A DNA stretch of 64,000 nucleotides from Methylocapsa sp. S129. Its GTDB lineage: Bacteria; Pseudomonadota; Alphaproteobacteria; Rhizobiales; Beijerinckiaceae. Made by a program: the position numbers and the translations under genes. Location: positions 131,292 to 195,291 of the forward strand of contig NZ_LMUI01000008.1 in the NCBI RefSeq assembly GCF_009765995.1, in the 5' to 3' direction. How positions within the stretch are numbered: position 1 is the first letter of the stretch; the number at the start of each line of letters is the position of its first letter. Below the pieces are notes generated by a model. The model had not been told where the DNA came from and did not search any database. It saw only the letters and a list, made by a program, of their open reading frames with translations. Below, piece after piece: positions 18,507 to 36,173 of the stretch.

Positions 18507-18516
18507 GGAGCCGTCT

Positions 18517-19848
18517 ATGGCCAGAGATCAGCAGGGACTGGAACTCGCCGGCGCGCCGGCCTCCGCCGACGCCCTCGACCGCGCGGTCAGCGATTATTAC
18601 GCCTGGAAGGGCGATCCGATCGCGACGCTGCAGGAGGCGGTCGACAGCGATCCCGCTTTCAACCTGGGCAGCAGCGCGATCGCCTCGCTATTCCTGCTCA
18701 ATGGCTTTCGCGGCGACAATCCGGCGGTGGTTAAGGCGATCGGCGCTGCCGAAGCCGCGCTGTCAGGCGCCTCGTCGCGCGAGCAGCGGCATCTGGCCGC
18801 CGCCAAGGCCTGGGCGGCCGGCCAGATCATCGGCGCGACCGACATCTGGGAGGACATACTCGTCGATCACCCGACCGACGCGCTCGCCCTGCGCTTCGCC
18901 CATGACAGCTATTTCTATCTCGGCCATTCCGTCAGCATCCGCGATTCCGTGGCGCGCGTCCTGCCGGCCTGGGATCGCGAAAACCCCAATTACGGCTTCG
19001 TGCTTGGCCAATACGCCTTCGGGCTGGAGGAAGCGGGCGAACTGCGCCGCGCCGAGGAGTTTGGGCGCCAGGCGATCGCGCGCAATGCCGAAGACGGCTG
19101 GGCGGTGCATGCCATCGCCCATGTGCTGGAGACGGAGAGCCGCCAGAGCGAGGGCATCGACTTCTTGAAACGCTCGCGCCCGTCCTGGAGCAAGGCGCAC
19201 GCTTTGTCTGTGCACAATGGCTGGCATCTTGCGCTCTACCTCATCGAAGAGGGGCGTTTTGCCGAAGTGCTCGCCGATTACGACCGTTTCGTCGCGCCGA
19301 AAATATCGGGCGATTCGCTGCTTGATCTCGTCGACGCCTCGGCGGTGTTGTGGCGTCTCGAACTCGCGGGCGCCGATGTCGGCGACCGCTGGGCGCCGCT
19401 GGCGCGCCAATGGCTGACCCATGTCGACGACCACGTGCTTGTCTTCAACGACCTGCATATTGCGCTAGCGGTGTCGCGGGCGAACGATCCGGAGGGGGTG
19501 GCGCGGCTGCGCCGCTCTCTCGACGATTACGAGCGCGATGGAAGCGGCGACAACCTCGAGTTCACCGTCGATGTCGGCCGGCGTCTGATCGATGGCGTGC
19601 TCGCCTTCGCCCAGGGCGATTATGCGCGCACGGTGGAATTGATCCTGCCCGTTCGCTACAAGGTGATCCGCATCGGCGGCAGCCACGCCCAGCGCGACAT
19701 CGTCACGCAAACGCTGATCGCCGCCGCCGAACGCTCAGGCCAGACCAGCCTCGCCCGCGCCCTCCTCGCCGAACGTCTCGCCGTGCGCCCGACCGAGCGC
19801 ACGAAGGCGGCTTATGAGAAAGTCGGCGGCGTGACGGCCGCGCACTGA
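18517..19848 (+). CDS. TTC38-like tetratricopeptide repeat protein
   Basis: This 443-aa cytoplasmic protein has no signal peptide and is built of alpha-helical TPR-like units throughout, for example FGRQAIARNAEDGWAVHAIA followed by HVLETESRQSEGIDFL. This layout and the NGWHLALYLIEEG segment match the TTC38 family found in bacteria and animals. The ribosome site GAGGAG lies six bases before the ATG. It begins 10 bp after the hydrolase stop, suggesting one transcript. The molecular role of the family is not established. Confidence 0.8.
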   Translation: MARDQQGLELAGAPASADALDRAVSDYYAWKGDPIATLQEAVDSDPAFNLGSSAIASLFLLNGFRGDNPAVVKAIGAAEAALSGASSREQRHLAAAKAWAAGQIIGATDIWEDILVDHPTDALALRFAHDSYFYLGHSVSIRDSVARVLPAWDRENPNYGFVLGQYAFGLEEAGELRRAEEFGRQAIARNAEDGWAVHAIAHVLETESRQSEGIDFLKRSRPSWSKAHALSVHNGWHLALYLIEEGRFAEVLADYDRFVAPKISGDSLLDLVDASAVLWRLELAGADVGDRWAPLARQWLTHVDDHVLVFNDLHIALAVSRANDPEGVARLRRSLDDYERDGSGDNLEFTVDVGRRLIDGVLAFAQGDYARTVELILPVRYKVIRIGGSHAQRDIVTQTLIAAAERSGQTSLARALLAERLAVRPTERTKAAYEKVGGVTAAH

Positions 19849-19857
19849 CGACGCGGT

Positions 19858-21486
19858 TCACGCGCGCGCCTGGTTGGTCGAGAACAACACCGCCGGCAGC
19901 GGTTCGCGACCCCGCACCAGATCGGCGGCTTTCTCGCCGATCATGATCGTCGGGGCATTGGTGTTGGACGACACGATTTTCGGCATGATCGAGGCGTCGC
20001 AAATGCGCAGATTTTCAATGCCGCGCACGCGCAGATCGGGCGTCACGACGGCGAGCGCATCATGCCCCATGCGGCATGTGCCGACGGGATGATGATCGGT
20101 CTTGGCGTGACGGCAGCCATAGTCAAAAAGGTCGTCGTCGCTGACCTTGTCGGGGCCGGGAAGATATTCGGCGAGAATAAACGGCTTGAGCGCCTTCTGC
20201 CGCATAATCTCGCGCGCGATTCTAAGGCCCGCCAGCGACATCGCGCGATCATAAGAATCGGCCCAGTAATTGGGGTCGATCAACGGCGCCGCTTTTGGAT
20301 CGTCGCTTGCGAGGCGCACTGTGCCGCGCGAACGGGGCCGCAGAAAAGCGGAGTTCAGCGTCACGCCGGGATGGTTCATGCGCGCCACGCCCGCCTCGAT
20401 GCCCGAACCCAGGCCAAGATGAAACTGGATGTCGGGCGAGCGCGCGTCCCTATCCGCATACCAGAAACCGCCGGTTTCGAAAAAACTGGACGCCACCGGC
20501 CCCTTTTTGAACAGCAGATATTGGAGCCCCGCCCAAGCGGATCGATGCAGCTTGGCGACATCGTCATAAGTGTGGTCGCCGGTGCATTCGGCGATGACAT
20601 AAAGATCGAGATGATCCTGAAGGTTGGCGCCGACGCCAGGCAGATCATGCGTCACGGGCACGCCGACCGCCTTGAGATGATCGGCCGGCCCGATGCCCGA
20701 TTGCAGCAGCAGCTTGGGTGTGCCGATCGCGCCCGATGTGACAAGCACTTCGCGTTCAGCGCGCAGAACCTTCGACGCGCCATTCTTACCCAGAATTTCA
20801 ACGCCGACGGCCCTGCCATTCTCAATGACGACGCGCGTCGTCAGCACGCCGGCGCGGATCGCAAGGTTGGGCCGGTCGCGCACGGGATTGAGATAGGCGA
20901 CGGCGGCCGAAGAACGTCGGGCGTTGCGCTGGGTGAGCTGATAGAAGCCGACGCCCTCCTGGCGCGCGCCATTGACATCGTCATTATAGGGAATGCCCAT
21001 CTCCTGCGCCGCGCGAAAGTAGGCGTCGCAGATCGGTAACGGCGAAATCGGCATGGAGACGCCAAGCGGACCGCCGTAGGAATGATAATCGTTGACGAAA
21101 CGCTGATTGTCTTCGGCGCGCTTGAAATAGGCGAGGACTTCGCGATAGCTCCAGCCTTCGCAGCCCTCTTCCCCCGCCCATGCGTCGTAATCCAGCGCAT
21201 TGCCCCGTGTGTAAATCTGCGCGTTGATCGTCGAACCGCCGCCGATCACCTTGGCCTGGGTATAGCGAAGCACGCGCCCATTCATATGCCGCTGCGGCAC
21301 GGTCTCCCAACCCCAGGAGCCGATGCCCTTGGTCATTTTGGCGAAGCCCGCGGGCATATGGTAAAATGGATGCCAATCGCTGCCGCCCGCTTCCAGCAGC
21401 AGGACGGAAACGTCCTCGTCCTCGCTCAGCCGGTTCGCCAGCACGCAGCCGGCCGGCCCCGCGCCGACGATGATGTAATCGGCCAT
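19858..21486 (-). CDS. GMC-family FAD oxidoreductase (choline/alcohol dehydrogenase-like)
   Basis: This 542-aa protein starts at ATG 21486 with the FAD-binding motif IIVGAGPAGCVLANRLSED. The GMC signature 1 region AKVIGGGSTINAQIYTRG and the C-terminal active-site block HHPVGTCRMG are present. It belongs to the choline dehydrogenase/aryl-alcohol dehydrogenase branch and oxidises primary or secondary alcohols. It is the last gene of the minus-strand importer operon, 17 bp after the SDR gene, so a carbohydrate- or polyol-type alcohol substrate is more likely here than choline. Confidence 0.88.
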   Translation of the reverse strand: MADYIIVGAGPAGCVLANRLSEDEDVSVLLLEAGGSDWHPFYHMPAGFAKMTKGIGSWGWETVPQRHMNGRVLRYTQAKVIGGGSTINAQIYTRGNALDYDAWAGEEGCEGWSYREVLAYFKRAEDNQRFVNDYHSYGGPLGVSMPISPLPICDAYFRAAQEMGIPYNDDVNGARQEGVGFYQLTQRNARRSSAAVAYLNPVRDRPNLAIRAGVLTTRVVIENGRAVGVEILGKNGASKVLRAEREVLVTSGAIGTPKLLLQSGIGPADHLKAVGVPVTHDLPGVGANLQDHLDLYVIAECTGDHTYDDVAKLHRSAWAGLQYLLFKKGPVASSFFETGGFWYADRDARSPDIQFHLGLGSGIEAGVARMNHPGVTLNSAFLRPRSRGTVRLASDDPKAAPLIDPNYWADSYDRAMSLAGLRIAREIMRQKALKPFILAEYLPGPDKVSDDDLFDYGCRHAKTDHHPVGTCRMGHDALAVVTPDLRVRGIENLRICDASIMPKIVSSNTNAPTIMIGEKAADLVRGREPLPAVLFSTNQARA

Positions 21487-21503
21487 CGTCTTCTCCGATT
21501 GGC

Positions 21504-22277
21504 TCACAGGCGCGGCAACGACAGGCCGCCGTCGGCGGCGACGACGCTGCCTGTCGCGAAAGCAAACCGCCCCGAGGCGAGACCGGCGACGATGGCGCCG
21601 ACATCGGCGGCCTCGCCCCAGCGGCGCGCGGGAACCAGACCACCCGCGATCACCGAATCGTAGCGACCGGCGACCGGCGCCGTCATATCGGTGCGGATAA
21701 TGCCGGGGCGCACTTCGAATACGGCGATGCCTTCGGGCGCAAGGCGCGCGGCGAAGGCTTTCATCGCCATCGAAAGTCCCGCTTTCGAAACGCAATATTC
21801 CGCACGGTCGGGCGAGACCATCTCGGCCGAAACCGAAGTGATCGTGACGATCGAGCGCGGATGGCCCGTCTCTCCCGCGCCAAGCATCGCGCGCGCCACT
21901 GTCTGGGTCAGGAACAGCGCGCCGCGCAGATTGACGCTCATCACGGCGTCGAAATTCTCCGGCGCGAGCGCGAGAAGGTCGCCGCGTATGACGGCGCCGC
22001 GTCCGGCATTGTTGACGAGGCAATCGAGGCGCTTGAAGCGCTGCAAAACCGAAGCGACGAGCGCGGCGTGGCTGTCGATCGCCGCAAGGTCATGCGTAAA
22101 GAACGCGGCGCTCGCACCGGCCGTCTCGAAGGCCGCCTGCGCTTCGCGCGCGGTCGCGTCGATGACAAGGTCGGTGGCGGCGATATCGAAGCCCGCGCGC
22201 GCCAGCGCCTCGCCGCAGGCGCGCCCGATGCCGCGCCGGGCGCCGGTGACGAGGGCGACAGGCCGCGCGGCGCTCAT
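21504..22277 (-). CDS. 3-oxoacyl-ACP reductase-like SDR dehydrogenase
   Basis: This 257-aa classical short-chain dehydrogenase has the coenzyme motif TGARRGIGRA near residue 11, NNAG, a catalytic Ser in ITSVSAE and the YxxxK pair in YCVSK. Its start codon overlaps the stop of the upstream GMC gene (ATGA), so the two are translationally coupled. It most resembles sugar- or polyol-oxidising SDRs labelled FabG-like. In this operon it probably carries out the NAD(P)-linked oxidation or reduction next to the flavin-linked step. Confidence 0.88.
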   Translation of the reverse strand: MSAARPVALVTGARRGIGRACGEALARAGFDIAATDLVIDATAREAQAAFETAGASAAFFTHDLAAIDSHAALVASVLQRFKRLDCLVNNAGRGAVIRGDLLALAPENFDAVMSVNLRGALFLTQTVARAMLGAGETGHPRSIVTITSVSAEMVSPDRAEYCVSKAGLSMAMKAFAARLAPEGIAVFEVRPGIIRTDMTAPVAGRYDSVIAGGLVPARRWGEAADVGAIVAGLASGRFAFATGSVVAADGGLSLPRL

Positions 22278-23788
22278 GCCGCAAGCTCCGTTGTTCTGAC
22301 ATGTTCGGCGGCGCGCAACGCGAGCGCGGCGACGGTGAGCGAGGGGTTGACGCCCGCCGAGGTCGGCAACACGCTGGCGTCGACGACGAACAGATTGGGA
22401 TGGTCGAACGCGCGGCAATGGGGATCGACGGCGGCTTTGGCCGGGTCCTGGCCCATGCGGATCGTGCCGCATTGGTGGGACGGCGTCCGCCGGTCGAAGG
22501 GCTTGACGAGAACGACCGGAAAGCCCGCCGCGCGCAACACTTCGCGCATCCGCGCGACAAGGCCGTTCTGGGCGCTCATATTGGACGGGCGCCAGTCCAG
22601 CACGACGCGCGATCCATCAAGCCAGACGCGGCTGTCGGGCGAGGGCAGGTCTTCGCTCATCAGGTAGAAATCGACGGCGCGGCGCGCCATCATCTCCAGC
22701 GCGAATTCAGGCGCAAGGCGCAATTGCGATTTGAGGATCGCGCCCGAAATCTTGCCGAGCAATTGGACATTGCCGAGCGGCGGGCCGCCACGTCCGTCGT
22801 CGAGATAGAAATCGTTGAGGCCGATCGTCTTCTGGTAGATCGAATCGTTGCGCCTGAATGGGTCGATGGCGAGCGCGGCCGAACTATTGTGATTCATGAA
22901 ATGCCGCCCGACCTGATCGGCGCGATTAGCGAGGCCCTTGGGCATCGCGCCATTGGCGGAGGCCAGCAGCAGCAGCGCGGAATTGACCGCGCCCGCCGCG
23001 AGCACGACGAGTTTCGGGCTCAGGCGCCGCGTCTCGCCCGCGCGCTCATAGACGATGGTCTCGATTCTCTTCCCGGCGCTATCGGTCTCCAGCCGCACGA
23101 CGCGTGCGCCGGTCTCAAGCGTGACATTGTCATGCGCCAGCGCGCCTTTGAGGCCGCAGGTCTCGGCGTCCATCTTGCCGGTATTGGTGTCGGGGAAGGC
23201 GTCCCAAGGGGTCTTCGCCCTGGCGAGCCAGCGGTCGATATCGACGCCAAGCGGCAGCGAGAACGGATGCATGCCCGCCTTCGCCAGCCGTTCGCGCACC
23301 GCTGCGATCGCAGGTTCGTCCGGCACGGGCGTAAAGGGATAGGGGGCGGAATGAGCCGGTTCGGTCGGATCTTCGCCAAGGCGCCCGCGCACCTGATAGA
23401 GGGCTTCGGCGCGGCTGTACCAAGGCTCCAGTTCTTCGTAGGCGAATGGCCAGCCCGGCGTTTGCCCATCGGCATATTGGACCGGCGCAAAATCCTGCGC
23501 GCGATAGCGGATCAGCACCGCGCCATAGAGCTTGGTGTTGCCGCCGACGTAATAATAATTGCCGGGATTGAAGGATTCGCCCGCGGCGTCGAACCAGGTC
23601 TCCTTCGGACGGAATACGCCCTTCTGGAAGATCGCGCGCGCATCGCGCGTCTCCGGGCGGTCCACGAGCCGGTCGCCGCGCTCCAGAATGAGAATGCGCG
23701 CGCCCGAAGGCGCGAGCCGCGCCGCAAAAGTCGCGCCACCCATGCCCGAGCCGATGACGACGACGTCTGGATCGTCAGGCGGCGTCAT
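22274..23788 (-). CDS. GMC-family oxidoreductase (sugar dehydrogenase branch)
   Basis: This 504-aa protein starts at ATG 23788 with a GAGG site six bases upstream. FAD motif VVIGSGMGGATFAARLAP is at the N-terminus and the C-terminal block HQCGTIRMG carries the active-site region. It differs from the GMC protein at 19858 and instead resembles the one at 60307 (shared YYVGGNxKxxGAxLxR pattern). This branch includes gluconate and fructose dehydrogenase-like and glucoside 3-dehydrogenase-like flavoenzymes. No twin-arginine signal or cytochrome subunit is present, so it is probably cytoplasmic. It is 27 bp after the ABC ATPase gene. Confidence 0.87.
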   Translation of the reverse strand: MTPPDDPDVVVIGSGMGGATFAARLAPSGARILILERGDRLVDRPETRDARAIFQKGVFRPKETWFDAAGESFNPGNYYYVGGNTKLYGAVLIRYRAQDFAPVQYADGQTPGWPFAYEELEPWYSRAEALYQVRGRLGEDPTEPAHSAPYPFTPVPDEPAIAAVRERLAKAGMHPFSLPLGVDIDRWLARAKTPWDAFPDTNTGKMDAETCGLKGALAHDNVTLETGARVVRLETDSAGKRIETIVYERAGETRRLSPKLVVLAAGAVNSALLLLASANGAMPKGLANRADQVGRHFMNHNSSAALAIDPFRRNDSIYQKTIGLNDFYLDDGRGGPPLGNVQLLGKISGAILKSQLRLAPEFALEMMARRAVDFYLMSEDLPSPDSRVWLDGSRVVLDWRPSNMSAQNGLVARMREVLRAAGFPVVLVKPFDRRTPSHQCGTIRMGQDPAKAAVDPHCRAFDHPNLFVVDASVLPTSAGVNPSLTVAALALRAAEHVRTTELAA

Positions 23789-23815
23789 CGGCGGCCTCAA
23801 CGTGAGCGCCGCCCC

Positions 23816-24928
23816 TCAAAGCCTCGCGCCCGACGCCGGATCGAACAGCAGCGCCTTGTCAAGATTGAAGGCGAAGGGAACCGTCTGCCCGGGCTGCACG
23901 ATCGTCTCGGCGCGCATGCGCGCTGTCACTTCCTTGCCGGCGATCTTCGTGACGACAAAAGTGTCGGAGCCCGCCGGCTGCACCACATCGACCCGCGCGT
24001 CGACCATCGATATGCCCTTGGAATGGCGATCGGCGCCGTCGAGATCGGTGATCGCCTCGGGGCGTATGCCCATAATGACCGCCCGCCCGTCGGTGAGCGC
24101 GCTGATATCGGCGCCGCGCGGCGCGGGCAGCTCGATCGGCGCGCCGTCGACGCGCTCCAGCAGGACGGAAGCATGGCCGTTGGCCCGCGTCACTTTGCCC
24201 GTCATCAGGTTCATCGACGGCGAGCCCATGAAATCGGCGACGAACAGATTGGCCGGGTTGTTGTAGATTTCGTACGGCGTCCCGACCTGCTGCAGCACGC
24301 CCTCCTTGAGGACGGCGATCTTGGTCGCCAGCGTCATCGCCTCGATCTGGTCATGCGTGACATAGACGATCGTTGCATGCGTGCTTTGATGCAGACGCTT
24401 GATCTCGGTGCGCAGGTCGACGCGCAGTTTGGCGTCGAGATTGGACAGCGGCTCGTCGAATAGAAAGACGCGCGGCTTGCGCACCAGGGCGCGGCCCATG
24501 GCGACGCGTTGGCGCTGGCCGCCCGACAATTGGCCCGGCCGGCGCTTCAGAAGATGGTCGAGCTGCAGCGTTTTGGCGACTTCCGTCACGGCGGCGTCGC
24601 GCTCCGCCTTCGGCACGCCGCGCATTTCCATGCCGAACGCCATATTCTGCTCGACGCTCATATTGGGATAGAGGGCGTAGGACTGGAACACCATGGCGAT
24701 GTCACGCTTGGACGGATGGAGATCGTTGACGACGGAGCCGTCGATCGAGATTTCCCCTTCGCTGATGGTCTCGAGGCCCGCGATCATATTCAGCAAGGTC
24801 GACTTGCCGCAGCCGGACGGGCCGACGAGTACGAGAAACCCGCCCTTCTCAAGCGTGAGATTGACGCCCTTGATGATCTCCAGCGCGCCGAAACGCTTCT
24901 TTAACTTACGGATTTCAAGAAAGGACAT
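23816..24928 (-). CDS. CUT1 sugar ABC transporter ATP-binding protein (UgpC/MalK type)
   Basis: This 370-aa ATPase has Walker A GPSGCGKST, signature LSGGQRQRVAMGRAL, Walker B VFLFDEP and switch His in VTHDQ. The C-terminal 130 residues form the TOBE/OB-fold regulatory domain of MalK-like proteins. It follows the second permease gene after only 5 bp and precedes the GMC/SDR genes. It energises the importer encoded by the next three genes. Confidence 0.93.
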   Translation of the reverse strand: MSFLEIRKLKKRFGALEIIKGVNLTLEKGGFLVLVGPSGCGKSTLLNMIAGLETISEGEISIDGSVVNDLHPSKRDIAMVFQSYALYPNMSVEQNMAFGMEMRGVPKAERDAAVTEVAKTLQLDHLLKRRPGQLSGGQRQRVAMGRALVRKPRVFLFDEPLSNLDAKLRVDLRTEIKRLHQSTHATIVYVTHDQIEAMTLATKIAVLKEGVLQQVGTPYEIYNNPANLFVADFMGSPSMNLMTGKVTRANGHASVLLERVDGAPIELPAPRGADISALTDGRAVIMGIRPEAITDLDGADRHSKGISMVDARVDVVQPAGSDTFVVTKIAGKEVTARMRAETIVQPGQTVPFAFNLDKALLFDPASGARL

Positions 24929-24933
24929 CGATT

Positions 24934-25881
24934 TTACCCTTTGACCGCGCCGGCCATCAGGCCGCGCACGAAATAGCGCCCGGCGACGACATAGACGAAC
25001 AAGGTTGGCGCGGCGGCGATGATCGCCGCCGCCATATTGACGTTATATTCAATGATGCCGGTCGAGGTGTTGACGACATTGTTGACCGCCACCGTCATCG
25101 GGCTTTGATCGCCAGCGGCGAAGGTCGCGCCGAACAGAAAATCGTTCCAGATGTTGGTGAACTGATAGATCACCGTCACGATGAAGATCGGTCCGGAATT
25201 GGGCAGCATGATGCGGCGAAAAATCTGAAAGAAGCCGGCGCCGTCGATCATCGCCGATTTGACGAGTTCGGTGGGGAACGCCTCGTAAAAATTGCGGAAG
25301 AACAGGGTGGTGAAACCCAGTCCATAGACGGTGTGGACGAGAACCAGATTGACGGTCGGATTGCCAAAGCCGAGCGACACTCCAAGATTGTCGGTGAAAA
25401 AATTGCCCCATTCGCCGAGCATTCCCAAAATCACCGCCATGGGAATGATCACGGACTGGAACGGAATGAAACAAGCGAACAGCATCAGGCCGAACACCAG
25501 GCGGTGGCCGGCAAAACGCCATTTGGTCAAGACATAGCCGTTGAGGGCGCCAAGCAGCGTCGAGATCAGGACGGCGGGGATCACCATCTTGATCGAGTTC
25601 CAGAAATAGCCCTTGATGCCCTCGCAGGTGAGGCCGACGCAGGTCGTGCCCCAGGCCTTCGCCCAGGCGTCGAAATTGGGTTCCTTGGGCAGCGCGAACA
25701 TATTGCCGCCGGTCACTTCGTCGAGCGGCTTCAGCGACGTCATCACCATGACGACGAGCGGTAGGAGATAGACGATCGCGAAGAAGCCGAGCAATCCATA
25801 GATCACGATGCGCGTCGTCATCGAGGAGCGCGAGGGATCGCGCCTCGGCTCGGCGGCGAGCAGGGCGTCGGCGGCGCTCAT
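24934..25881 (-). CDS. Carbohydrate ABC transporter permease (MalG/GtsC type)
   Basis: This 315-aa inner-membrane protein has six hydrophobic segments and the EAA-loop region DGAGFFQIFRRIMLPNSGP. The true start is ATG 25881, which overlaps the stop of the upstream permease gene (ATGA). A longer frame to 26334 is only the shadow of that gene. Similarity is to CUT1 family permeases such as the glucose importer GtsC. It pairs with the product of 25878-26831. Confidence 0.92.
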   Translation of the reverse strand: MSAADALLAAEPRRDPSRSSMTTRIVIYGLLGFFAIVYLLPLVVMVMTSLKPLDEVTGGNMFALPKEPNFDAWAKAWGTTCVGLTCEGIKGYFWNSIKMVIPAVLISTLLGALNGYVLTKWRFAGHRLVFGLMLFACFIPFQSVIIPMAVILGMLGEWGNFFTDNLGVSLGFGNPTVNLVLVHTVYGLGFTTLFFRNFYEAFPTELVKSAMIDGAGFFQIFRRIMLPNSGPIFIVTVIYQFTNIWNDFLFGATFAAGDQSPMTVAVNNVVNTSTGIIEYNVNMAAAIIAAAPTLFVYVVAGRYFVRGLMAGAVKG

Positions 25882-26831
25882 TGGCTCTTCTCCCGCAATT
25901 CGGAATAGAGATAGGGCACCATGATCGCCGCGATGGCCATCAGCATGATGATGGCGCTCGCCGAGCCGACCGCCATCTGGTTGCGCGTGAACGTGTAGGA
26001 ATACATGAAGGTTGAGGGAAGTTCGGCGGCGCCGCCAGGGTTCTTGCCGGTGACCGATAGAACAAGATCGTACGATTTGATCGCCAGATGGGTCAAAATA
26101 ATCAAGGCCGAGAAGAACACCGGCCGCATGATTGGGATGATGATGCGACGGTACATCATGAAGCCCGAGGCGCCGTCGATCTGCGCGGCCTTCAATATTT
26201 CGCCGTCGATGCCGCGCAGTCCCGCCAGAAACAAGGCCATGACGAAACCGGAGCTCGCCCATATGCCGGCGATCGCGACGCAATAGATCATCATGCGAGG
26301 ATTGACGACCCAGTCGAATGAGAAGCTCGTCCATCCCAGATCATGCACCGCCTTTTCGAGGCCGATGCCCGGATCGAGAAACAGTTTCCATGCCGTGCCG
26401 GTCACGATGAAAGACAGCGCCAGCGGGTAGAGATAGATCGGGCGCAGGAAACCCTCGCCGCGAATCTTCTGGTCGAGCAAGATCGCCAACGTCAGGCCGA
26501 GGGCGAGGCAGCAGACCACATAGAGCCCGCCGAACAGCCCCATATTGATGATCGCGGTGTACCAACCCGAGGGCGGATCGGTCTCGAACGTCCACGTCCA
26601 AAGCTTTTGGTAATTGCTCAGGCCGACGAGATGGTCGTTGGCGAACGCCTTCGAATTGGTGAAGGATAGATAGAACGTCCACAGGATGAAGCCGTAGACG
26701 AACAGAAGGATCGCGGCGAACGAGGGCGCCAGCACCAGCTTGGGCAAGGCGTCTTGCAAGCGCCCGCGCACCGACCCGCGCGGTCGCGGCATAGTGACAT
26801 CGGCAAGCGGGGCGACAGTGATCTCGGTCAT
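25878..26831 (-). CDS. Carbohydrate ABC transporter permease (MalF/GtsB type)
   Basis: This 317-aa inner-membrane protein has six hydrophobic segments and the EAA loop EILKAAQIDGASGFMMYRRI. It follows the binding-protein gene after 63 bp that hold a strong hairpin and overlaps the next permease gene by four bases. It is of CUT1 type. Expression is probably lower than that of the binding protein because of the hairpin. Confidence 0.92.
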   Translation of the reverse strand: MTEITVAPLADVTMPRPRGSVRGRLQDALPKLVLAPSFAAILLFVYGFILWTFYLSFTNSKAFANDHLVGLSNYQKLWTWTFETDPPSGWYTAIINMGLFGGLYVVCCLALGLTLAILLDQKIRGEGFLRPIYLYPLALSFIVTGTAWKLFLDPGIGLEKAVHDLGWTSFSFDWVVNPRMMIYCVAIAGIWASSGFVMALFLAGLRGIDGEILKAAQIDGASGFMMYRRIIIPIMRPVFFSALIILTHLAIKSYDLVLSVTGKNPGGAAELPSTFMYSYTFTRNQMAVGSASAIIMLMAIAAIMVPYLYSELREKSQ

Positions 26832-26859
26832 GGGCGCGTTCGTTCAAGCGAAGGAGGGA

Positions 26860-26883
26860 CCGCCCCCGCGCGAGCGGGGGCGG
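26860..26883 (-). promoter_or_regulatory. Intercistronic stem-loop after the binding-protein gene
   Basis: A perfect 10-bp stem (CCGCCCCCGC / GCGGGGGCGG) with a four-base loop lies between the binding-protein and permease genes. No T-tract follows. Such hairpins in ABC importer operons stabilise the upstream message or attenuate read-through, giving excess binding protein over permease. That role is inferred from position. Confidence 0.65.
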
Positions 26884-26894
26884 ATTGGCGTTGG

Positions 26895-28160
26895 TTACTT
26901 CGCGGCGTTGATCGCCTTGACGAGCTCCGTCACGGCGCTGTCGGAGGTCTTGATCTCGCCATGGAAGAACTTGGTCACGACGTCATGATAGGCGCCGGCG
27001 ACGGCCGGCGGCTGGGCGTAGTTCTGGGCCATTGAACCGACGAACTTGCCGTCGGCATTGGCGGCCTTCACGTCGGCGATGCCCTTCTTGCCGCAGATGT
27101 CGAACGCGGTGTCGGGAACGTCCATGCGCGCCGGCACGGAACCCTTCACCACGTTGAACGCCGACTGGAAGCTGATGCTCATCGTCGCGTCTGCAAGCGC
27201 CAATTGTGCGGCCTTGCGATCGGCGGGAACATTGAACATCGCGAACATATCGGTGTTGTAGATCACCGAACCGTCGGTGCCGGGGAAGCGATAGCAGAGG
27301 AAATCCTTGCCGGCTTCCTTATTGGCGGCTTTGAACTCGCCCTTGGCCCAATCGCCCATCACTTGCACGAGCGCATCGCCCTTGATCACCATCGCGGTGG
27401 CGAGGTTCCAGTCGCGGCCCGCAAAGTTCGGATCGGTATAGGCCTTCAGCTTGGCGAGATTGTCGAAGGACTTCTTCATCGTGTCGGACTTCAAGGCGCT
27501 TTCATCGAGATCGACGAAAGCCTTCTTGTAGAACTCGATGCCGCCGGTCGAGGCGACGACCGAGTCGAACATCGTCGCTTCCTGCCAGGGCTGGCCGCCG
27601 AGCGCGAGCGGAATGACGCCCGCCGCCTTGGCCTTATCGAGCAAAGCGATGAACTCGTCGAAGGTCTTCGGCTCGGTCCCGCCGATCTTCTCCAGCACCG
27701 CCTTGTTGATCCAGACCCAATTGACGGAGTGGATGTTGACCGGGACGGCGTCCCATTTGCCATTGGTGGTGGTGAATTTCTGCAGGGCCGTCGGCACGAC
27801 CTTCGCCCAATTTTCCTTGGTCGCCAGCGACGTGATGTCGCCCAGCTTGCCGGCCTCGGCATAGTCGACGGCGAAATAGCCGAGGATTTGCGAAGCGGTC
27901 GGCGGGTTGCCCGCCGCCACCATCGCTTTCAGCGCGGTCATGGCGCCTTCGCCGCCGCCGCCCGCCACGGGCACGTCTTTCCAGGCGAAGCCTTCCTTCG
28001 CGAGATCCCCCTTGAGGACATTCAACGCGGCCGCTTCGCCGCCTGAGGTCCACCAGTGCAGCATTTGCACGGTCTTGTCGTCTGCGGCATGCGCCGAGGC
28101 GGCGAAACCGGCCGCCGATGCGAGCGCGACGCCCGCCATAAGCATGGTGCGGAACTTCAT
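26895..28160 (-). CDS. Sugar ABC transporter substrate-binding protein (GtsA-like)
   Basis: This 421-aa periplasmic binding protein starts at ATG 28160 (GGAAGG site) with a signal peptide [20 protein letters not shown] ending in SAHAADD. The mature N-terminus [20 protein letters not shown] matches the glucose/mannose-binding GtsA group of CUT1 proteins. It is the first gene of the importer operon. The likely ligand is a hexose or a hexose-containing glycoside, but specificity within this group varies. Confidence 0.9.
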
Positions 28161-28409
28161 ATTATTGCCTTCCAAATAAGCGACATCTCCCCACCGGATT
28201 CGGTCCGGCGCCGTCGTCATCAAGGGCCGAAATCTCGACCCCCGCCTTCCTTCACGTCAGCATCGCAGCCCGGGCCGTCCATGGGCGCGCGGACTTTGTG
28301 GACGTGGAAAGTCTTGTCATCACTGTATTCGGCTCCCGTGCTGTGGCCAAGCGCTCCCGAAGCCTTCGATTGCCAGAACTGTCGCGCGCCTCCTGCGTCG
28401 TTCTCATCA

Positions 28410-29186
28410 TCATCGACCCTCGAAATGCGGCGGACGCTTGTCGTTGAAGGCGGCGACGCCCTCGCCAAGATCTCGCGTCGTCGCCGTGAACGCGCCGGCG
28501 AGCGCCTCGATCGGCGCATCGCTGTCTTCGCCTTCGGCGGCGTTGATCATCGATTTGACGATCTGCGCCGCCACCGGCCCGCGCGCTGCGATAGCCCGCG
28601 CGATCGCTTCGGCGCGCGTCAATCCCTCGCCCGCTTCGACCACTTCATCGACCAGTCCAAGCGCCAGGGCCTCTTCAGCCTCGAACATCCGCCCGCCCAA
28701 AGCCATGCGGCGCACGACTTGCGCGCCAAAACGCCGGACGAGACGCTGCGTGCCCGACCATCCCGGCGCCATGCCGAGGCCCGTTTCGGGCAGGCCAAGT
28801 TTGATCCCCGTCTCGGCGATGCGAATGTCGGCGGTCGCTGCGAGCTCCAGGCCGCCGCCGAAGGCATGGCCTGTTAGCGCCGCGACGAGAGGCACGCGCA
28901 GCCGCGCCAGAGCCTCGAATGCGCGATGGCCAACCCGCGTCCAGTCGCGCCACATTTCGAGCGGCGGCAGATTGCTCCAGGCGGCGATGTCGCCGCCCGC
29001 GCAAAACGCCTTGCCTTCGCCCGACAGGATGGCGACACGAATGTCCGACGCATCCTCGATCGCTTCCGCGGCGCGCGCCAGCGCAACGATCATCGCACGG
29101 TCGAGCGCATTGAGCTTGTCAGGACGCTTCAACGTGAGCCTGGCGATTGGCCCGTCAAAGGCGAGGCGAATCCGGTCGTCGGTCAT
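28410..29186 (-). CDS. Enoyl-CoA hydratase/isomerase (crotonase) family protein
   Basis: This 258-aa crotonase-fold protein starts at ATG 29186, overlapping the CoA-transferase stop (ATGA). The oxyanion-hole segments are AFCAGGDIAAW and GHAFGGGLELA. The first catalytic glutamate is kept (LPETGLG), but the position of the second (Glu164 in rat crotonase) appears to be Arg in RRMALGG. This makes simple hydration less certain, and another crotonase reaction is possible. It is the last gene of the lacI operon. Confidence 0.83.
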   Translation of the reverse strand: MTDDRIRLAFDGPIARLTLKRPDKLNALDRAMIVALARAAEAIEDASDIRVAILSGEGKAFCAGGDIAAWSNLPPLEMWRDWTRVGHRAFEALARLRVPLVAALTGHAFGGGLELAATADIRIAETGIKLGLPETGLGMAPGWSGTQRLVRRFGAQVVRRMALGGRMFEAEEALALGLVDEVVEAGEGLTRAEAIARAIAARGPVAAQIVKSMINAAEGEDSDAPIEALAGAFTATTRDLGEGVAAFNDKRPPHFEGR

Positions 29187-30796
29187 GACGCGCACTCCAG
29201 GCGGCGAGGCGGCGATGGCGGCAGTTTGAGGCCGAGCGGCCCAGGATGAAACAGCGTCACATCCATCGCCTTCAATTGGTCGGAGACGACAAGCGGAAAC
29301 TTCGCCTGCCCCAGAATGTCGCGGTCGAGGTCGACGCCCGGCGCGATCTCGGTCACCGTGACGCCCTTTGCGGTCAAGCGCATGACGCAGCGCTCGGTGA
29401 CATAGGTAATATCCTGGCCTTGGGTGATGGCGCGGCCGCCGGAAAAGGACACTTGTTCGACTTCCTCGACCAGTTTGGCGATCTTGCCTTCCCGCGCGAT
29501 CCGCAGCCTGCCCGCCTCGACGGCAAGGCCCGCGCCGGCGGTGAAAAAGCCGGAGAAGACGATTTTCTTGGCCCGCGCCGTGATGTCGACAAAGCCGCCC
29601 GCGCCCGCCGTCACATGCGGGCGCGCGCCAAGCTTGGAGACATTGACCGAGCCGCGCTGGTCGATCTCAAGGAAGGAGAGCAGCGAGCAATCAAAGCCGG
29701 CCCCCTGGAAATAGGTGAACTGATAAGGCGAGGGCATGATCGCTTCGGCGTTGGCGGCGCAGCCGAACTGGAAGTCGAGCAGCGGCACGCCCCCAACCGC
29801 CCCTTGCTCGATCACCCAGGTGACGGCGCCGTGCTGGCCTTCCTCGATCAGGATGCGCGGCACATTGGCGGAGACGCCAAAACCGATATTGACGGCATCG
29901 CCCTGACGCAGCTCCTGCGCGACGCGGCGCGCAATGACTTTGGAAATGTTGAATTCAGGCAGTTCGAAAGTCGAAAGCGGCCGGAAGATTTCACCCGAAA
30001 TTGCGGGATCGTAAACCGTCTGCGTCGTTTGCATCTGTTCGGGCGCGACGACGATCGCATCGACGAGAATGCCGGGCACGAACACATCGAGAGGCTTGAG
30101 CGTGCCCGCCTTGGCGAGCCGCTTGACCTGCGCGATGACGATGCCGCCATTGTTGCGCACGCTCAGCGCCTGATCGAGCGGGCCGAGATAGCCGCCTTCA
30201 TGTTCATAGGAAAGATTGCCGCGCTCATCCGCTGTCGTCGCGCGAATGATCGCAACATTGGGGATGATGGCGGGAAAGAACAGCCAGTCTTCGCCGGCGA
30301 AGGCGACGCGGGAGACGACGGGCCTCGCCGCCGCCTTGGCGTTCATCGCGCAGCCCTGGCGGGCGGGATCGGCGAATGTGTCCATGCCGATCTTGGTCAG
30401 CACGCCAGGCCGCTTAGCCGCCGCCTCGCGATGCATGTCGAACAGGATGCCCGAAGGGATGTTGTAGGCGGGGATTTGATCGCCTGAGACCATTTGCCAG
30501 ATCTTCGGCGGCTCCGCCTTCGACGGACCGGAGGGATAGGAGCCCGCGATAATGCGGGCGAGGCAGCCAGGCTTGGCCAGATGATCGACGCCGCCAATGC
30601 CCCACATGTCGCCGGCGGCGATCGGGTGCAGGGTGGTGATGTCGCGCGGATGGCCGGCTTGGTCGAAACGCCGGCCGATCGCCGCGAGCACGGCGTCAGG
30701 GCAGCCAAGGCCGGAAGACGAGGATATCGTCACGATAGCGCCGTCCGGAATCAGGCGGGCGGCTTCGTCGGCGGTGAGGACGCTCGGAAAGGCCAT
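29183..30796 (-). CDS. Fused acyl-CoA:acetate CoA-transferase (YdiF/family I type)
   Basis: This 537-aa protein combines alpha and beta halves of family I CoA-transferases. The N-terminal half has the CoA-binding GxGG-like segment and the C-terminal half holds the probable catalytic Glu in VIEQGAVGG. It resembles acetate/propionate CoA-transferase YdiF. It would activate a carboxylic acid made by the island's dehydrogenases, giving a CoA ester for the coupled crotonase-family enzyme. It lies 3 bp after the Gfo/Idh/MocA gene. Confidence 0.88.
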   Translation of the reverse strand: MAFPSVLTADEAARLIPDGAIVTISSSSGLGCPDAVLAAIGRRFDQAGHPRDITTLHPIAAGDMWGIGGVDHLAKPGCLARIIAGSYPSGPSKAEPPKIWQMVSGDQIPAYNIPSGILFDMHREAAAKRPGVLTKIGMDTFADPARQGCAMNAKAAARPVVSRVAFAGEDWLFFPAIIPNVAIIRATTADERGNLSYEHEGGYLGPLDQALSVRNNGGIVIAQVKRLAKAGTLKPLDVFVPGILVDAIVVAPEQMQTTQTVYDPAISGEIFRPLSTFELPEFNISKVIARRVAQELRQGDAVNIGFGVSANVPRILIEEGQHGAVTWVIEQGAVGGVPLLDFQFGCAANAEAIMPSPYQFTYFQGAGFDCSLLSFLEIDQRGSVNVSKLGARPHVTAGAGGFVDITARAKKIVFSGFFTAGAGLAVEAGRLRIAREGKIAKLVEEVEQVSFSGGRAITQGQDITYVTERCVMRLTAKGVTVTEIAPGVDLDRDILGQAKFPLVVSDQLKAMDVTLFHPGPLGLKLPPSPPRRLECAS

Positions 30797-30799
30797 CGG

Positions 30800-32853
<2,054 letters not shown>

Positions 32854-32910
32854 AGCCTGTCTCCTCCCGAACCCATGCCAAAGGCGGTATTCATCCGCCA
32901 TTATTGATTT

Positions 32911-32920
32911 GGAACGTTCC
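32911..32920. promoter_or_regulatory. LacI-type operator O1
   Basis: The perfect 10-bp palindrome GGAACGTTCC with central CG sits in the wider context ATTTGGAACGTTCCTAT, 58 bp upstream of the TTG start of lacI. It is identical in its core and 5' flank to the second site 99 bp away. Confidence 0.75.
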
Positions 32921-33009
32921 TATCGAACAACCCAGATGATGTCAACGACGAGTGTTTTACCCCAAGAATGCAGCGATTTATATGACATTTGCGCGCCTGT
33001 CTTGAATTT

Positions 33010-33019
33010 GGAACGTTCC
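33010..33019. promoter_or_regulatory. LacI-type operator O2
   Basis: This is a second copy of GGAACGTTCC in context ATTTGGAACGTTCCGAT, 79 bp upstream of the DUF993 gene start. The 99-bp centre-to-centre distance from O1 would allow a LacI tetramer to loop, or two dimers to bind each promoter separately. Confidence 0.75.
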
Positions 33020-33097
33020 GATGCTATGATCGGCCAACGCTCGCAACAAGAGCATGGTCGGTTTGCTGGTCGGCGCCGCGCCAAAGGGAGGAGAGCG

Positions 33098-34264
33098 ATG
33101 GTCGGTCTGAAATTGCTTGCCGGCGATGGCTCGCTTCAGTCCTTCGAACTTTCGCCGCCCTCGCCCTATCCGGCGAAGGAAACGCGCGATTTCCCGCGGA
33201 TCGTCTATGCAGCGGCCCATGTGGTCGCCGATCCGCTCTCAGGCGCGGATTCGCTGTCGCGCTCGGCGGTCGATTGGGACCGCACGCTTGCCTTTCGCCA
33301 TCGTCTTTGGGATCTCGGCTTTAAAATCGCCGAGGCGATGGACACGGCGCAGCGCGGCATGGGTCTGGACTGGAATGGCGCGCAGGAACTGATTGCGCGC
33401 GCGCTCGCGGAGGCCAAAGCGCGGCCGGGCGCCGACCTTGCCTGCGGCGCCGGCACGGATCATCTCGACCCCGCCGCCGCGCGCACGCTCGGCGATGTCG
33501 TCGCCGCCTATGAAGAGCAGGTCGGCTTCGTCGAAAAGCATGGCGGCCGCGTCGTGATGATGGCGAGCCGCGCGCTCGCCCGCGTCGCGCGAGGCCCCGA
33601 CGATTACGCCTTCGTCTACGACCGCATTCTGTCCCAGGCGAAAGAGCCCGTCATCCTGCATTGGCTCGGCGACATGTTCGACGCCGCCCTCGCGGGCTAT
33701 TGGGGCGCCGGGGACATCGAAGGGGCGATGAGCGGCGTTCTCGACATTATCGCGCGTCATCAGGCGCGCATCGACGGCGTCAAGATTTCTCTGCTCGACG
33801 CTGGCAAGGAAATCGATCTGCGCCGCCGGCTTCCAGCCGGCGTGCGTATGTATACGGGCGACGATTTCAACTATGCGGAACTGATCGCCGGCGACGGCGC
33901 GCATCATTCGCACGGCCTGCTCGGCATTTTCGACCCGATCGCGCCTGCCGCCGCCGCCGCGCTTGTGAAGCTCGGCGCTGGCGATCGCGCCGGCTATGAT
34001 GAGATTCTGGCGCCGACCGTGCCGTTGTCGCGCAAAATATTCGAGGCGCCGACGCAATATTACAAGGCGGGAATCGTGTTCTTGGCCTGGCTCAATGGCT
34101 TCCAGGACCATTTCATCATGCTCGGCGCCATGCAATCGGCGCGCAGGATTCTGCATTATTCCGACGTGTTTCGCCTCGCCGACCGTGCGGGGCTGATCGT
34201 CGATCCTGAGCGCGCGTGCAAGCGGATGAAAGCGCTTCTGGCGACCTATGGGATCGAAGGGTGA
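33098..34264 (+). CDS. DUF993 dihydrodipicolinate-synthase-like TIM-barrel protein
   Basis: This 388-aa protein starts at ATG 33098 behind GGGAGGAGAG. The sequence matches the DUF993 family, distant relatives of the DHDPS/N-acetylneuraminate lyase class I aldolases. A lysine in DGVKISLLDAG lies in the barrel strand where such enzymes form a Schiff base, and this is a candidate catalytic residue. It is divergent from lacI with both predicted operators between them, so it is almost certainly part of the same regulon. An aldol cleavage or dehydration of a keto-sugar acid is a reasonable guess. The family has no settled activity that I know of. Confidence 0.85.
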   Translation: MVGLKLLAGDGSLQSFELSPPSPYPAKETRDFPRIVYAAAHVVADPLSGADSLSRSAVDWDRTLAFRHRLWDLGFKIAEAMDTAQRGMGLDWNGAQELIARALAEAKARPGADLACGAGTDHLDPAAARTLGDVVAAYEEQVGFVEKHGGRVVMMASRALARVARGPDDYAFVYDRILSQAKEPVILHWLGDMFDAALAGYWGAGDIEGAMSGVLDIIARHQARIDGVKISLLDAGKEIDLRRRLPAGVRMYTGDDFNYAELIAGDGAHHSHGLLGIFDPIAPAAAAALVKLGAGDRAGYDEILAPTVPLSRKIFEAPTQYYKAGIVFLAWLNGFQDHFIMLGAMQSARRILHYSDVFRLADRAGLIVDPERACKRMKALLATYGIEG

Positions 34265-35370
34265 TCGTGGGCGAAAACCATCGGCTGTGACTCCCGTGGC
34301 GGGTAAGGCGATGCGCCAGCCTGAACGGGCGCTTTGTCGTCGGCCTTCTCTATAAAGACCGAGTCGCCAAATTCGTGGGAGCGAAAGTCGCGCGCCTCTA
34401 ATTCCGCATCGATGCGGCTGAGCGTTTCATTCCCCGCGAAGGCGCGCAAAAGCTCATAATGGCTCGAGCCTTGCTCGTGCGCTCCCGAAAGAATGGCGTC
34501 CACCACGCGCAGTCTGGAACAGGAATCGATTTTCTGCGTCGCCAAGCGCTCGCCGGCGGGCGCGTCGCCGTCGAACATCGCGCCCGCGTGCTCCAGCGCC
34601 CGCACGACGCTTGTGCCGATCGCAATGACGCGGCCGCCGCGCATGCGCGCCTCGGCTATGATCCGCGCGGTCGATCGCGGAATGCGGTATGGTTCATCGA
34701 AGGGCAGCAGCGCGTCCAGTTCCGCATCGCCCGTCGATGAAATTCCGGCAGCGTGCGTGATCGCGCCAAAGCGGATGCCGCGCGCCGTCATCGATTCGAT
34801 CATGCGCCAATCAAGCGCGAAGCCGGCCGACGGCGCCTCGAACGCGACGGGCGGACCGGCGATCGCCATCCACACGTCCCACAGGGCAAGCGGCGTCGCG
34901 ATATGCGCATATTGGATCGGGCGGCCATGGCGCGCCAAGCCTTCCCAAATCTCTGCCGGCGAGCCCTCGAAGTCGAGCGCGACGTAGCGAGGGTGATTCA
35001 GCACGCGCGCGACGATCGTATTGAGCGGGCCAAGGGCCAGCCGGTCCCCCGGATGGATCGGCGGCGGCTTTGGCCGATCCTCGGTGCGCGTGCGAAAGTC
35101 GCCCTCTCCGAATATGACGGCGAAAAATTGCTTGATCTCCTGGAGCGAACGACGGCCCGCAAGCCGCACTTCAATCCGGCCGCCGCTGGGGCCATGCCGG
35201 CCAAACAGGCTGGCGGGCAAGACCGCCGCATTATTGGCGATGACAACGTCCCCGGGATTGACAAGGCTTGCGAATTCCGACCGTGCGCGCCGGCCGATAT
35301 TGCCGCGCTTGTCGGCGTGCAGCAGCTTCGCGCCCGGCGGGCGCTGGACTGGCGCGCTGGCGGCGATCAC
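34246..35370 (-). CDS. QueA-like S-adenosylmethionine:tRNA ribosyltransferase-isomerase family protein
   Basis: This 374-aa protein starts at GTG 35370, overlapping the SDR stop (GTGA), with an AGGG site. It carries family features such as NPGDVVIANNAAVLPASLFG, THAAGISSTG and TSVVRALEHAG. In canonical QueA the equivalent segments read DVLVFNDTRVIPARL and HVGAGTF, so this is a divergent branch. QueA makes epoxyqueuosine in tRNA. No other queuosine gene is near, and the operon partner is an SDR under a SoxR-type promoter, so a different SAM-dependent reaction is possible. Its stop overlaps the convergent DUF993 gene by 19 bp. Confidence 0.75.
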   Translation of the reverse strand: MIAASAPVQRPPGAKLLHADKRGNIGRRARSEFASLVNPGDVVIANNAAVLPASLFGRHGPSGGRIEVRLAGRRSLQEIKQFFAVIFGEGDFRTRTEDRPKPPPIHPGDRLALGPLNTIVARVLNHPRYVALDFEGSPAEIWEGLARHGRPIQYAHIATPLALWDVWMAIAGPPVAFEAPSAGFALDWRMIESMTARGIRFGAITHAAGISSTGDAELDALLPFDEPYRIPRSTARIIAEARMRGGRVIAIGTSVVRALEHAGAMFDGDAPAGERLATQKIDSCSRLRVVDAILSGAHEQGSSHYELLRAFAGNETLSRIDAELEARDFRSHEFGDSVFIEKADDKAPVQAGASPYPPRESQPMVFAHDHPSIP

Positions 35371-36173
35371 ATTGCGCCCTCTCGCGTCGCGTCGCTCGAA
35401 GTAGGCTTCGGCCGCGCCATCAAGGCGGCGAGCGTATCGAGGAGTTTGCGCGCCGCAATCTCCGGGCGCTGAAGCGCCGAGCGATCCGCGTCGGGCGCCG
35501 CCGCCGCATGCAACGGCGTATCCATATCGCCCGGATCCAGCGAGAGAACACGCACGCCGACGCCGCCAAGCTCGTCGTCCCAGATACGGCTCAAATGATG
35601 CAACGCGGCTTTGCTGGCGCCATAGGCGCCCCATTTCTGGTACGCATTGATCGCCGCGTCGCTCGAAATATTCACCACCACCGCTGTGCGCCCCTCCCAC
35701 GCGGATTCCGCCAGTGAGCCGAGCAGTGTTTTGGCCAACCGAAACGGGCCGAGGACGTTTGTGGCGAGCGCGCGCTCAAAATCTTCGCATTCCGTGTCCG
35801 CCAGCAGCGCCAGCGGCGTTGGCCCCAGATGCGAAGCATTGTTGATGAGCACATCAAGACCGCCAAGCGTGCCCAGGATCTGCATGGCGATGGGATGAAC
35901 GTCGTCCTTTTTCGAAATGTCGCCGACAACGCCATGCGCGCCCGTCAGCTCACGTATGACGCGCTCAACGCCATCCCGCCGGCGCGCGACGAACGCGACC
36001 CGCGCCTGGCGATGCATCAATTCCCTAACGAGGGCGAGGCCCAGGCCCGACGTGCCGCCGGTAATGGCGATGCGGAGGCCGGCGAATGGATTGTCGGGCC
36101 GGCCCTCCGCCAGCACGAGCCGTAGAACTGTCATGGACGATGAAGAACTGGCGACTTGTCGATCGTTCGGCAT
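35367..36173 (-). CDS. SDR-family short-chain dehydrogenase
   Basis: This 268-aa protein has coenzyme motif ITGGTSGLGLAL (about residues 36-47), NNAS, the catalytic Ser in NISSDAA and YGASK. The ATG at 36173 follows AGGGAAAG. It is the first gene of a two-gene operon with the QueA-like gene and is transcribed away from soxR by a promoter with SoxR-like geometry. SDRs are common members of SoxR regulons in non-enteric bacteria. The substrate is unknown. Confidence 0.85.
   Translation of the reverse strand: MPNDRQVASSSSSMTVLRLVLAEGRPDNPFAGLRIAITGGTSGLGLALVRELMHRQARVAFVARRRDGVERVIRELTGAHGVVGDISKKDDVHPIAMQILGTLGGLDVLINNASHLGPTPLALLADTECEDFERALATNVLGPFRLAKTLLGSLAESAWEGRTAVVVNISSDAAINAYQKWGAYGASKAALHHLSRIWDDELGGVGVRVLSLDPGDMDTPLHAAAAPDADRSALQRPEIAARKLLDTLAALMARPKPTSSDATREGAM

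Follow-up and report, generated by a model that had tools for sequence, protein, structure and literature searches.

Which compound is broken down by the LacI-controlled locus at positions 19858 to 34264 of a 64,000-nucleotide stretch of contig NZ_LMUI01000008.1 from Methylocapsa sp. S129 (hereafter the window), and by what chemistry? The window comes from a 6.9-Mb Hyphomicrobiales assembly made up of 62 contigs. The original prediction for this DNA described twelve genes, eleven on the minus strand and a divergent DUF993 gene, and proposed that a sugar-like compound is imported and converted to coenzyme A (CoA) esters. Open reading frames (ORFs) and domain matches confirmed this layout and the four-base overlaps claimed for it, which are of the ATGA type at four junctions of the minus-strand genes. 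The single larger gap in that run, about 250 bp, lies between the crotonase gene and the binding-protein gene. From the data below, we conclude that the locus is real, conserved, co-regulated, and catabolic and that its substrate class can be named. That class is probably the 1,5-anhydrohexitols (1,5-anhydroglucitol, 1,5-anhydrofructose, and 1,5-anhydromannitol). We also favor, a little less firmly, a route through CoA esters, and on balance we lean toward the combined reading of a LacI-repressed catabolic operon in which 1,5-anhydrohexitols are opened via CoA esters.

The substrate class follows from the identity of the Gfo/Idh/MocA-fold protein encoded at 30800 to 31804 on the minus strand, the strand of every gene below unless stated otherwise. 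Against the Protein Data Bank (PDB), this protein scored 449.5 bits with 2GLX, the 1,5-anhydro-D-fructose reductase (AFR) of Sinorhizobium morelense, and 447.4 bits with 4KOA, whereas the next enzyme reached 98.9 bits. The CEKPLA and DITVHD motifs, whose EKP lysine and DxxxHD pattern we take to be the active-site motifs of AFR, were kept at 97% or more in 65 sequences, the window's included. The copy from the Ensifer adhaerens Lc04 cluster (L066) was approximately 94% identical to 2GLX (311 of 330 residues). These comparisons strongly support assignment of the window protein as AFR, an identity that the generic family label in the original prediction had missed. We rejected an inositol or levoglucosan reading of the protein, since the NCBIfam scores were 123 and 84 bits against cut-offs of 355 and 650. 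In 1,5-anhydrohexitols, C1 is locked as an ether, so these compounds cannot enter glycolysis as aldoses. According to passages of a 2025 review, S. morelense S-30.7.5, the source of AFR, came from an isolation in which 1,5-anhydrofructose was the only carbon source, and the ability to use this compound is placed in the Rhizobiaceae (PMC12441222).

The case for CoA esters begins with the two genes next to that of AFR. The fused alpha-beta CoA-transferase (29183 to 30796; PF01144) is of the YdiF/FadX type. It gave 343 bits with YdiF (PDB 2AHU) in an alignment over 522 residues, and the glutamate of its IEQG motif aligned with that of VETG in YdiF; IEQG was kept at 97% or more in 81 sequences. 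The NCBIfam FadX model gave 329 bits, below its equivalog cut-off of 750, so the protein is related to FadX but is not filed as FadX, and we dropped a fatty-acid role of the staphylococcal FadX type. The crotonase-fold enoyl-CoA hydratase (28410 to 29186; PF00378) overlaps the transferase gene at 29183 to 29186. It had been described as lacking the usual second glutamate, which was wrong: the glutamates of both GGGLE and GLPE are present, align with those of enoyl-CoA hydratases, and were kept at 97% or more in 77 sequences.

Is this association of genes conserved? We mapped the loci around the best 80 of 312 relatives of the CoA-transferase in our genome collection. The order LacI-(Gfo)-CoA-transferase-crotonase, with importer and GMC genes after it, recurred in Rhizobium, Ensifer, Ochrobactrum/Brucella, Aminobacter, Labrys, Bradyrhizobium, and others and, as part of the set, in Bosea, so the order is clearly not peculiar to this genome. 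In 297 genomes of the order (E-value thresholds of 1e-80 for AFR and 1e-180 for the CoA-transferase), the AFR gene was no more than 200 bp from a CoA-transferase gene in 25 of 31 copies. Seen from the other side, 25 of the 45 CoA-transferase genes had AFR within 200 bp and 30 had DUF993 within 20 kb. The CoA-transferase was present in 26 of 30 genomes with AFR versus 15 of 267 others, and DUF993 was present in 38 of 41 genomes with the CoA-transferase versus 51 of 256 others. Fisher tests gave P values of 9e-23 and 8e-20, which overstate independence because the genomes are related. A second DUF993 row in genome G300 fell below the family cut-off and was left out of these counts.

We then sorted 108 loci holding this CoA-transferase at 55% identity or more, many of them shortened (L157 repeats L038, and L185 matches L058). 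AFR was present and acyl-CoA dehydrogenase absent in 74, which form the AFR group; 19 held an acyl-CoA dehydrogenase, 8 held importer or GMC2 genes but neither of these enzymes, and 7 were incomplete or other. The AFR group contained crotonase in all 74 loci, LacI in 73, GMC2 in 64, an aldehyde dehydrogenase in 63, the binding protein in 61, DUF993 in 60, and a short-chain dehydrogenase/reductase (SDR) in 53. Thus, across the mapped loci, the 297 genomes, and the 108 loci, the predicted association of DUF993 with the CoA-transferase and crotonase was upheld.

These counts bear on the more general reading in the original prediction, in which a polyol or sugar is oxidized, DUF993 cleaves it first, and a fragment is then activated with CoA. 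The same gene set and the aldolase-like look of DUF993 speak for that order of events. However, the CoA-transferase/crotonase pair is the constant part, found in 74 of 74 AFR loci, and DUF993 is replaceable, being absent from three near-relative genomes that keep the CoA-transferase, crotonase, and AFR. A constant pair with a replaceable DUF993 implies that the CoA chemistry comes before DUF993 or is independent of it, and we regard cleavage by DUF993 as the first step as very improbable. For the same reason, calling DUF993 the key step was too strong. In six other genomes lacking DUF993 in the cluster, the gene lies elsewhere.

A second alternative takes its sequel to AFR from the literature. 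In the scheme outlined in passages of the 2025 review, which cites Kuhn et al. 2006, AFR yields 1,5-anhydromannitol, and a P450-like oxygenase hydroxylates C1 to give D-mannose (PMC12441222); the CoA-transferase and crotonase would then serve another substrate. The same passages call the oxygenase unidentified (PMC12441222). A motif scan, as opposed to a profile search, found no P450 signature in ORFs of more than 250 amino acids in the 80 loci L031 to L110; other oxygenase types were not searched for. The abstract of the Kuhn paper reportedly states the same C1 oxygenation to mannose. This scheme leaves the tight linkage of AFR, CoA-transferase, and crotonase unexplained, and we consider it unlikely to account for the locus.

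What enters the cell was addressed through the importer. The ABC importer consists of an ATPase of the UgpC/MalK type (23816 to 24928; NCBIfam PRK11650, 456 bits, cut-off 432), two permeases (permease 2 at 24934 to 25881 and permease 1 at 25878 to 26831; both PF00528) whose genes overlap at 25878 to 25881, and a periplasmic binding protein (26895 to 28160). The binding protein gave 523 bits with PDB 4R2B, 371 bits with 5DVF, and 109 bits with the glucose-binding protein 2B3B. In its family, a Trp-Trp pair, a Glu, and a further Trp were identical in 53 of 53 rows, and an Asp and a Lys were identical in 51 with 2 gaps. One pocket position was more variable (His in 36 rows, Gln in 15, gap in 2), and the window protein has Gln there. 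We presume that these residues line the sugar pocket. By sequence, then, the importer is of the glucose type, which, with the conservation of the CoA-transferase and crotonase beside AFR, supports the proposed processing of an imported sugar-like compound by way of CoA esters.

Three dehydrogenases lie beyond the importer. GMC1 (19858 to 21486; PF00732/PF05199) is a GMC flavoenzyme of the choline dehydrogenase type, its best PDB relative being a choline dehydrogenase at 416 bits. GMC2 (22274 to 23788) is of the sugar dehydrogenase type, with an FAD glucose dehydrogenase (145 bits) and a fructose dehydrogenase (108 bits) as its best PDB relatives. The SDR (21504 to 22277; PF13561/PF00106) overlaps GMC2 at 22274 to 22277 and passed the NCBIfam PRK12745 model (348 bits against a cut-off of 250). 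Its reading as a 3-ketoacyl-ACP reductase was dropped because that name comes from automatic annotation.

The resemblance of GMC2 to glucose and fructose dehydrogenases, together with the glucose-type binding protein, could suggest that AFR here acts on products of GMC2, either 2-keto aldoses (osones) or 2-keto glycosides, the imported substrate being an ordinary glucoside or glucose derivative. AFR reportedly reduces osones as well. However, osone reduction yields ordinary manno-aldoses, which need no CoA chemistry, and none of the scanned window proteins matched a glycosidase family in Pfam (the Pfam scan covered eleven proteins; LacI was scanned against NCBIfam only). The strain that supplied AFR was, moreover, isolated on 1,5-anhydrofructose itself, as the review passages have it (PMC12441222). 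We consider the osone explanation improbable.

The regulator is a LacI-family protein (31801 to 32901; NCBIfam), whose start may lie further inside; its gene overlaps that of AFR at 31801 to 31804. The operators said to be shared by lacI and DUF993 were found as exact copies of TTGGAACGTTCC at 32909 and 33008. Operator 1 spans 32909 to 32922, and operator 2, 99 bp away, spans 33008 to 33021. All matches to TTGGAACGTTCC with one mismatch or fewer in the window fell in these two palindromes. With up to two mismatches, the 12-mer was no rarer than chance (5 found versus 4.14 expected; 38 of 100 shuffles as high). Because this count is at chance level, support for the operator comes from its conservation across loci. 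With up to two mismatches allowed, 75 of 77 homologous loci had the 14-mer TTGGAACGTTCCAA upstream of lacI (53 exact and 73 with at most one), compared with 1 of 1,540 base-shuffled control regions. The two loci without it were L034, whose contig begins inside lacI, and L063. This conservation in front of lacI supports the view of a single LacI-controlled locus.

Does the same repressor also govern the importer? Only three other TTGGAACGTTCCAA sites occurred in 1.6 Mb: 71 bp ahead of the binding-protein gene (L038), at the start of that gene (L048), and 28 bp ahead of GMC2 (L058). In some relatives, one repressor thus governs both the importer and a GMC enzyme, and to that extent the predicted co-regulation of the importer with lacI and DUF993 stands. 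In the window itself, no operator precedes the importer genes, and co-regulation there would have to depend on operon read-through. As a separate observation, 27 loci (e.g., L066:14012-15064) carry a second, different lacI gene, which lies between those for the aldehyde dehydrogenase and the importer and in 26 of the 27 runs on the opposite strand.

The remaining gene, DUF993 (33098 to 34264, plus strand), matched PF06187 with 598.5 bits (cut-off 24) and gave 509 bits with PDB 4DNH, a solved but uncharacterized structure. In a profile-profile comparison, it matched dihydrodipicolinate synthase (DHDPS) family proteins of the same genome with 95.1% probability (E of 3.3e-8 over 240 columns; few effective sequences). 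Its Lys229 aligned with a lysine invariant in seven DHDPS-family proteins, and this residue was K in 109 of 109 DUF993 sequences from all contexts seen. The Pfam scan did not connect the protein with PF00701 (DHDPS), as only the DUF993 model was reported at an E value of 0.001 or less. The DHDPS superfamily includes 2-keto-3-deoxygluconate (KDG) aldolase. We infer that DUF993 is a remote DHDPS relative and a candidate lysine aldolase. It resembles the DHDPS/NAL/KDG-aldolase superfamily (PF00701) in the profile match and the aligned lysine but is a longer, separate family.

DUF993 also occurs outside this setting. The Gfo-DUF993-SPI trio without the CoA-transferase is separate and widespread (L158, L147 to L155, and others). 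A 462-residue protein annotated as an enolase lies beside Gfo, DUF993, and SPI genes in L165 (5390 to 6778), with relatives in L146, L151, and L152 and no Pfam match at an E value of 0.001. A strictly CoA-linked role for DUF993 was dropped, as 67 of the 97 DUF993 rows in the 297 genomes were not within 20 kb of this CoA-transferase.

Two genes linked to the cluster in relatives had been overlooked in the original prediction. In four annotated relatives, an aldehyde dehydrogenase gene lies between the crotonase and importer genes and a glycerate kinase gene lies at the cluster end (in Microvirga, the kinase is beside DUF993). The glycerate kinase of the cluster belongs to the MOFRL family (Pfam).

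With these parts, we propose the following pathway. The glucose-type importer would take up a 1-deoxyglucose-like pyranose. GMC2 may oxidize C2 of 1,5-anhydroglucitol to give 1,5-anhydrofructose, which AFR, a strong enzyme assignment whose NADPH-dependent reaction is taken from its characterized homologue, would reduce to 1,5-anhydro-D-mannitol. GMC1 and an aldehyde dehydrogenase may then oxidize C6 to the carboxylic acid, with GMC1 acting on the C6 alcohol. The CoA-transferase would form the thioester and so acidify the C5 hydrogen, upon which the crotonase could eliminate the C4 hydroxyl to give a C4=C5 enol ether. Addition of water at C5 would produce a hemiketal, and the ether ring would open without an oxygenase or radical chemistry. 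The open product would be a 3-deoxy-2-ketohexonate. By our own Fischer-projection derivation, renumbered from C6, the manno epimer would give exactly D-KDG (3-deoxy-2-keto-D-erythro-hexonate), whereas the gluco epimer would give the L-threo isomer, which offers a reason for the route through AFR. DUF993, as a lysine aldolase, may split KDG into pyruvate and D-glyceraldehyde, and an aldehyde dehydrogenase and the MOFRL-type glycerate kinase would take the three-carbon unit to phosphoglycerate. Handing CoA from product to new substrate would explain a transferase rather than a ligase, and D-glyceraldehyde as an end product fits the glycerate kinase in the cluster. KDG as the specific product is tentative.

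Several observations weigh against this proposal. The weakest step is the ring opening: normal crotonase hydration puts water on the beta carbon, but ring opening requires it on C5, the alpha carbon. The polarity is thus reversed, and this step may call for a different catalyst or take place spontaneously. The SDR has no place in the scheme, and the published hydroxylation of 1,5-anhydromannitol to mannose contradicts it. The window cluster has no aldehyde dehydrogenase gene (the best one in its genome, 42% identical, is elsewhere), and the sole glycerate kinase of that genome, 55% identical, is likewise located elsewhere. Six of the 31 AFR copies lack a neighboring CoA-transferase (G011, G053, G104, G312, G287, and the second copy in G157). 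The G287 genome nonetheless speaks for the proposal, since both halves of the set are present at separate places, AFR-crotonase-LacI at L171 and DUF993-CoA-transferase-aldehyde dehydrogenase-GMC2-SDR-GMC1-glycerate kinase at L174. AFR is also missing from the 8 loci that are otherwise similar and from the 19 with an acyl-CoA dehydrogenase. As for DUF993, only 30 of its 97 rows have this CoA-transferase within 20 kb, and in the Gfo-DUF993-SPI setting, a relative of the Chelatococcus Gfo flanks it in 12 of 20 loci. Finally, in seven AFR loci (L051:5698-7848, L038, L048, L052, L054, L057, and L157), a FrdA-like flavoprotein of 694 to 716 residues (PF00890) is divergent to lacI in the usual place of DUF993, and three genomes of that form lack any DUF993.

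The SDR is accommodated by a further alternative, which resembles beta-oxidation. Here, the SDR oxidizes the beta hydroxyl of a CoA ester (or ring C3), and the crotonase or DUF993 cleaves a carbon-carbon bond to give a two-carbon CoA ester and glycerate or glyceryl-CoA. The SDR occurs in the 53 AFR loci counted above and in 19 of 19 acyl-CoA dehydrogenase loci, and glycerate kinase is a common end of the clusters. A precedent, in the excerpted account, is the deoxyribonate cluster of Klebsiella michiganensis with its CoA-synthetase, hydroxyacyl-CoA dehydrogenase, thiolase, CoA-transferase, and glycerate kinase (PMC6365646). However, Pfam assigned neither a thiolase nor a beta-keto acid cleavage (DUF849) family to any of the eleven window proteins scanned, and AFR is not explained. 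We judge this alternative rather unlikely.

The acyl-CoA dehydrogenase loci shed light on the core of our proposed pathway. None of the 19 holds AFR, as expected if the enoyl-CoA comes by either dehydration or dehydrogenation. Those of the Bosea form have an importer of the polar amino acid type. All four records of the Sinorhizobium/Paracoccus/Sagittula/Rhizobium form carry the SDR, DUF993, and an SPI-type barrel, and three of the four carry glycerate kinase. It is possible, though we hold it with reserve, that the CoA-transferase and crotonase open the ring of the anhydromannitol C6 acid to D-KDG without an oxygenase or radical enzyme, that DUF993 is the aldolase, and that in Bosea, Sinorhizobium pSymA, and Paracoccus an entry module with an acyl-CoA dehydrogenase feeds other sugar acids, cyclic or deoxy, into the same core.

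Two further clusters may be recorded here. A paralogous one on a Sinorhizobium meliloti RCAM1115 plasmid (L159:4203-15703) encodes CoA-transferase, crotonase, glycerate kinase, acyl-CoA dehydrogenase, SDR, DUF993, SPI, electron transfer flavoprotein subunits, and two aldo/keto reductases. An actinobacterial one on a Glaciihabitans plasmid (L166:1-11186) has a CaiB/BaiF CoA-transferase beside crotonase, together with DUF993, Gfo, an SPI barrel, glycerate kinase, DUF2264, and LacI; this transferase is from a family unrelated to that of the window, in the same setting.

How does the proposal compare with known systems? In carnitine dehydration by CaiB/CaiD, a transferase and a crotonase act as a CoA-recycling dehydratase of a beta-hydroxy acid. 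The likeness lies in the transferase/crotonase pair, and in L166 the transferase is itself CaiB/BaiF; however, the window transferase is of the YdiF/FadX type and its proposed substrate is a cyclic sugar acid. The 1,5-anhydrofructose catabolism of S. morelense S-30.7.5 shares the first enzyme (2GLX). Its sequel in the review passages is C1 oxygenation to mannose (PMC12441222), whereas the locus here joins AFR to dehydrogenases, CoA-transferase, crotonase, DUF993, and glycerate kinase. Cleavage of the 1,5-anhydro ether is a problem shared with the anaerobic 1,5-anhydroglucitol-6-phosphate/anhydromannitol-6-phosphate pathway of gut bacteria, which the same passages assign to the glycyl-radical enzymes YbiW and PflD (PMC12441222). 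That pathway uses phosphotransferase system phosphorylation and oxygen-sensitive radical chemistry; the window locus has ABC import, flavin/NAD oxidation, and CoA esters, and no Pfam match to a glycyl-radical enzyme was obtained among the scanned window proteins. The nearest published logic for converting a sugar acid to CoA esters, as far as the excerpted source goes, is oxidative deoxyribonate catabolism, whose Klebsiella version leads from sugar acid to CoA ester to glycerate kinase (PMC6365646). It differs in that the window locus has AFR, crotonase, and DUF993, without a beta-keto acid cleavage enzyme or thiolase among the Pfam matches. A description of the cluster was not found in the open-license PubMed Central literature, which does not establish its absence from print at large, and no paper on DUF993 was found in that literature.

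On the plus strand, the cluster adjoins three genes at 16432 to 19848, for proteins that we named from reading their sequences only: Gfo/Idh/MocA-like (16432 to 17571), alpha/beta hydrolase-like (17658 to 18506), and repeat-like (18517 to 19848). None belongs to the conserved cluster of the 80 mapped loci. We rejected a horizontally acquired island on compositional grounds, as the GC content was 61 to 65% in 4-kb blocks from 20001 to 36000 and 62 to 67% elsewhere, with nothing striking.

For the biology of these bacteria, the cluster offers candidate enzymes for the fate of 1,5-anhydromannitol after AFR, where passages of the 2025 review call the next enzyme unidentified (PMC12441222). As described there, the metabolite responsible for the neutropenia of glycogen storage disease Ib and G6PC3 deficiency derives from 1,5-anhydroglucitol, and microbial lowering of 1,5-anhydroglucitol in the intestine would need an enzyme that works aerobically (PMC12441222). 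The cluster also gives a first functional hypothesis for DUF993. If our reading is true, it would add a CoA-dependent way to open a stable sugar ether ring.

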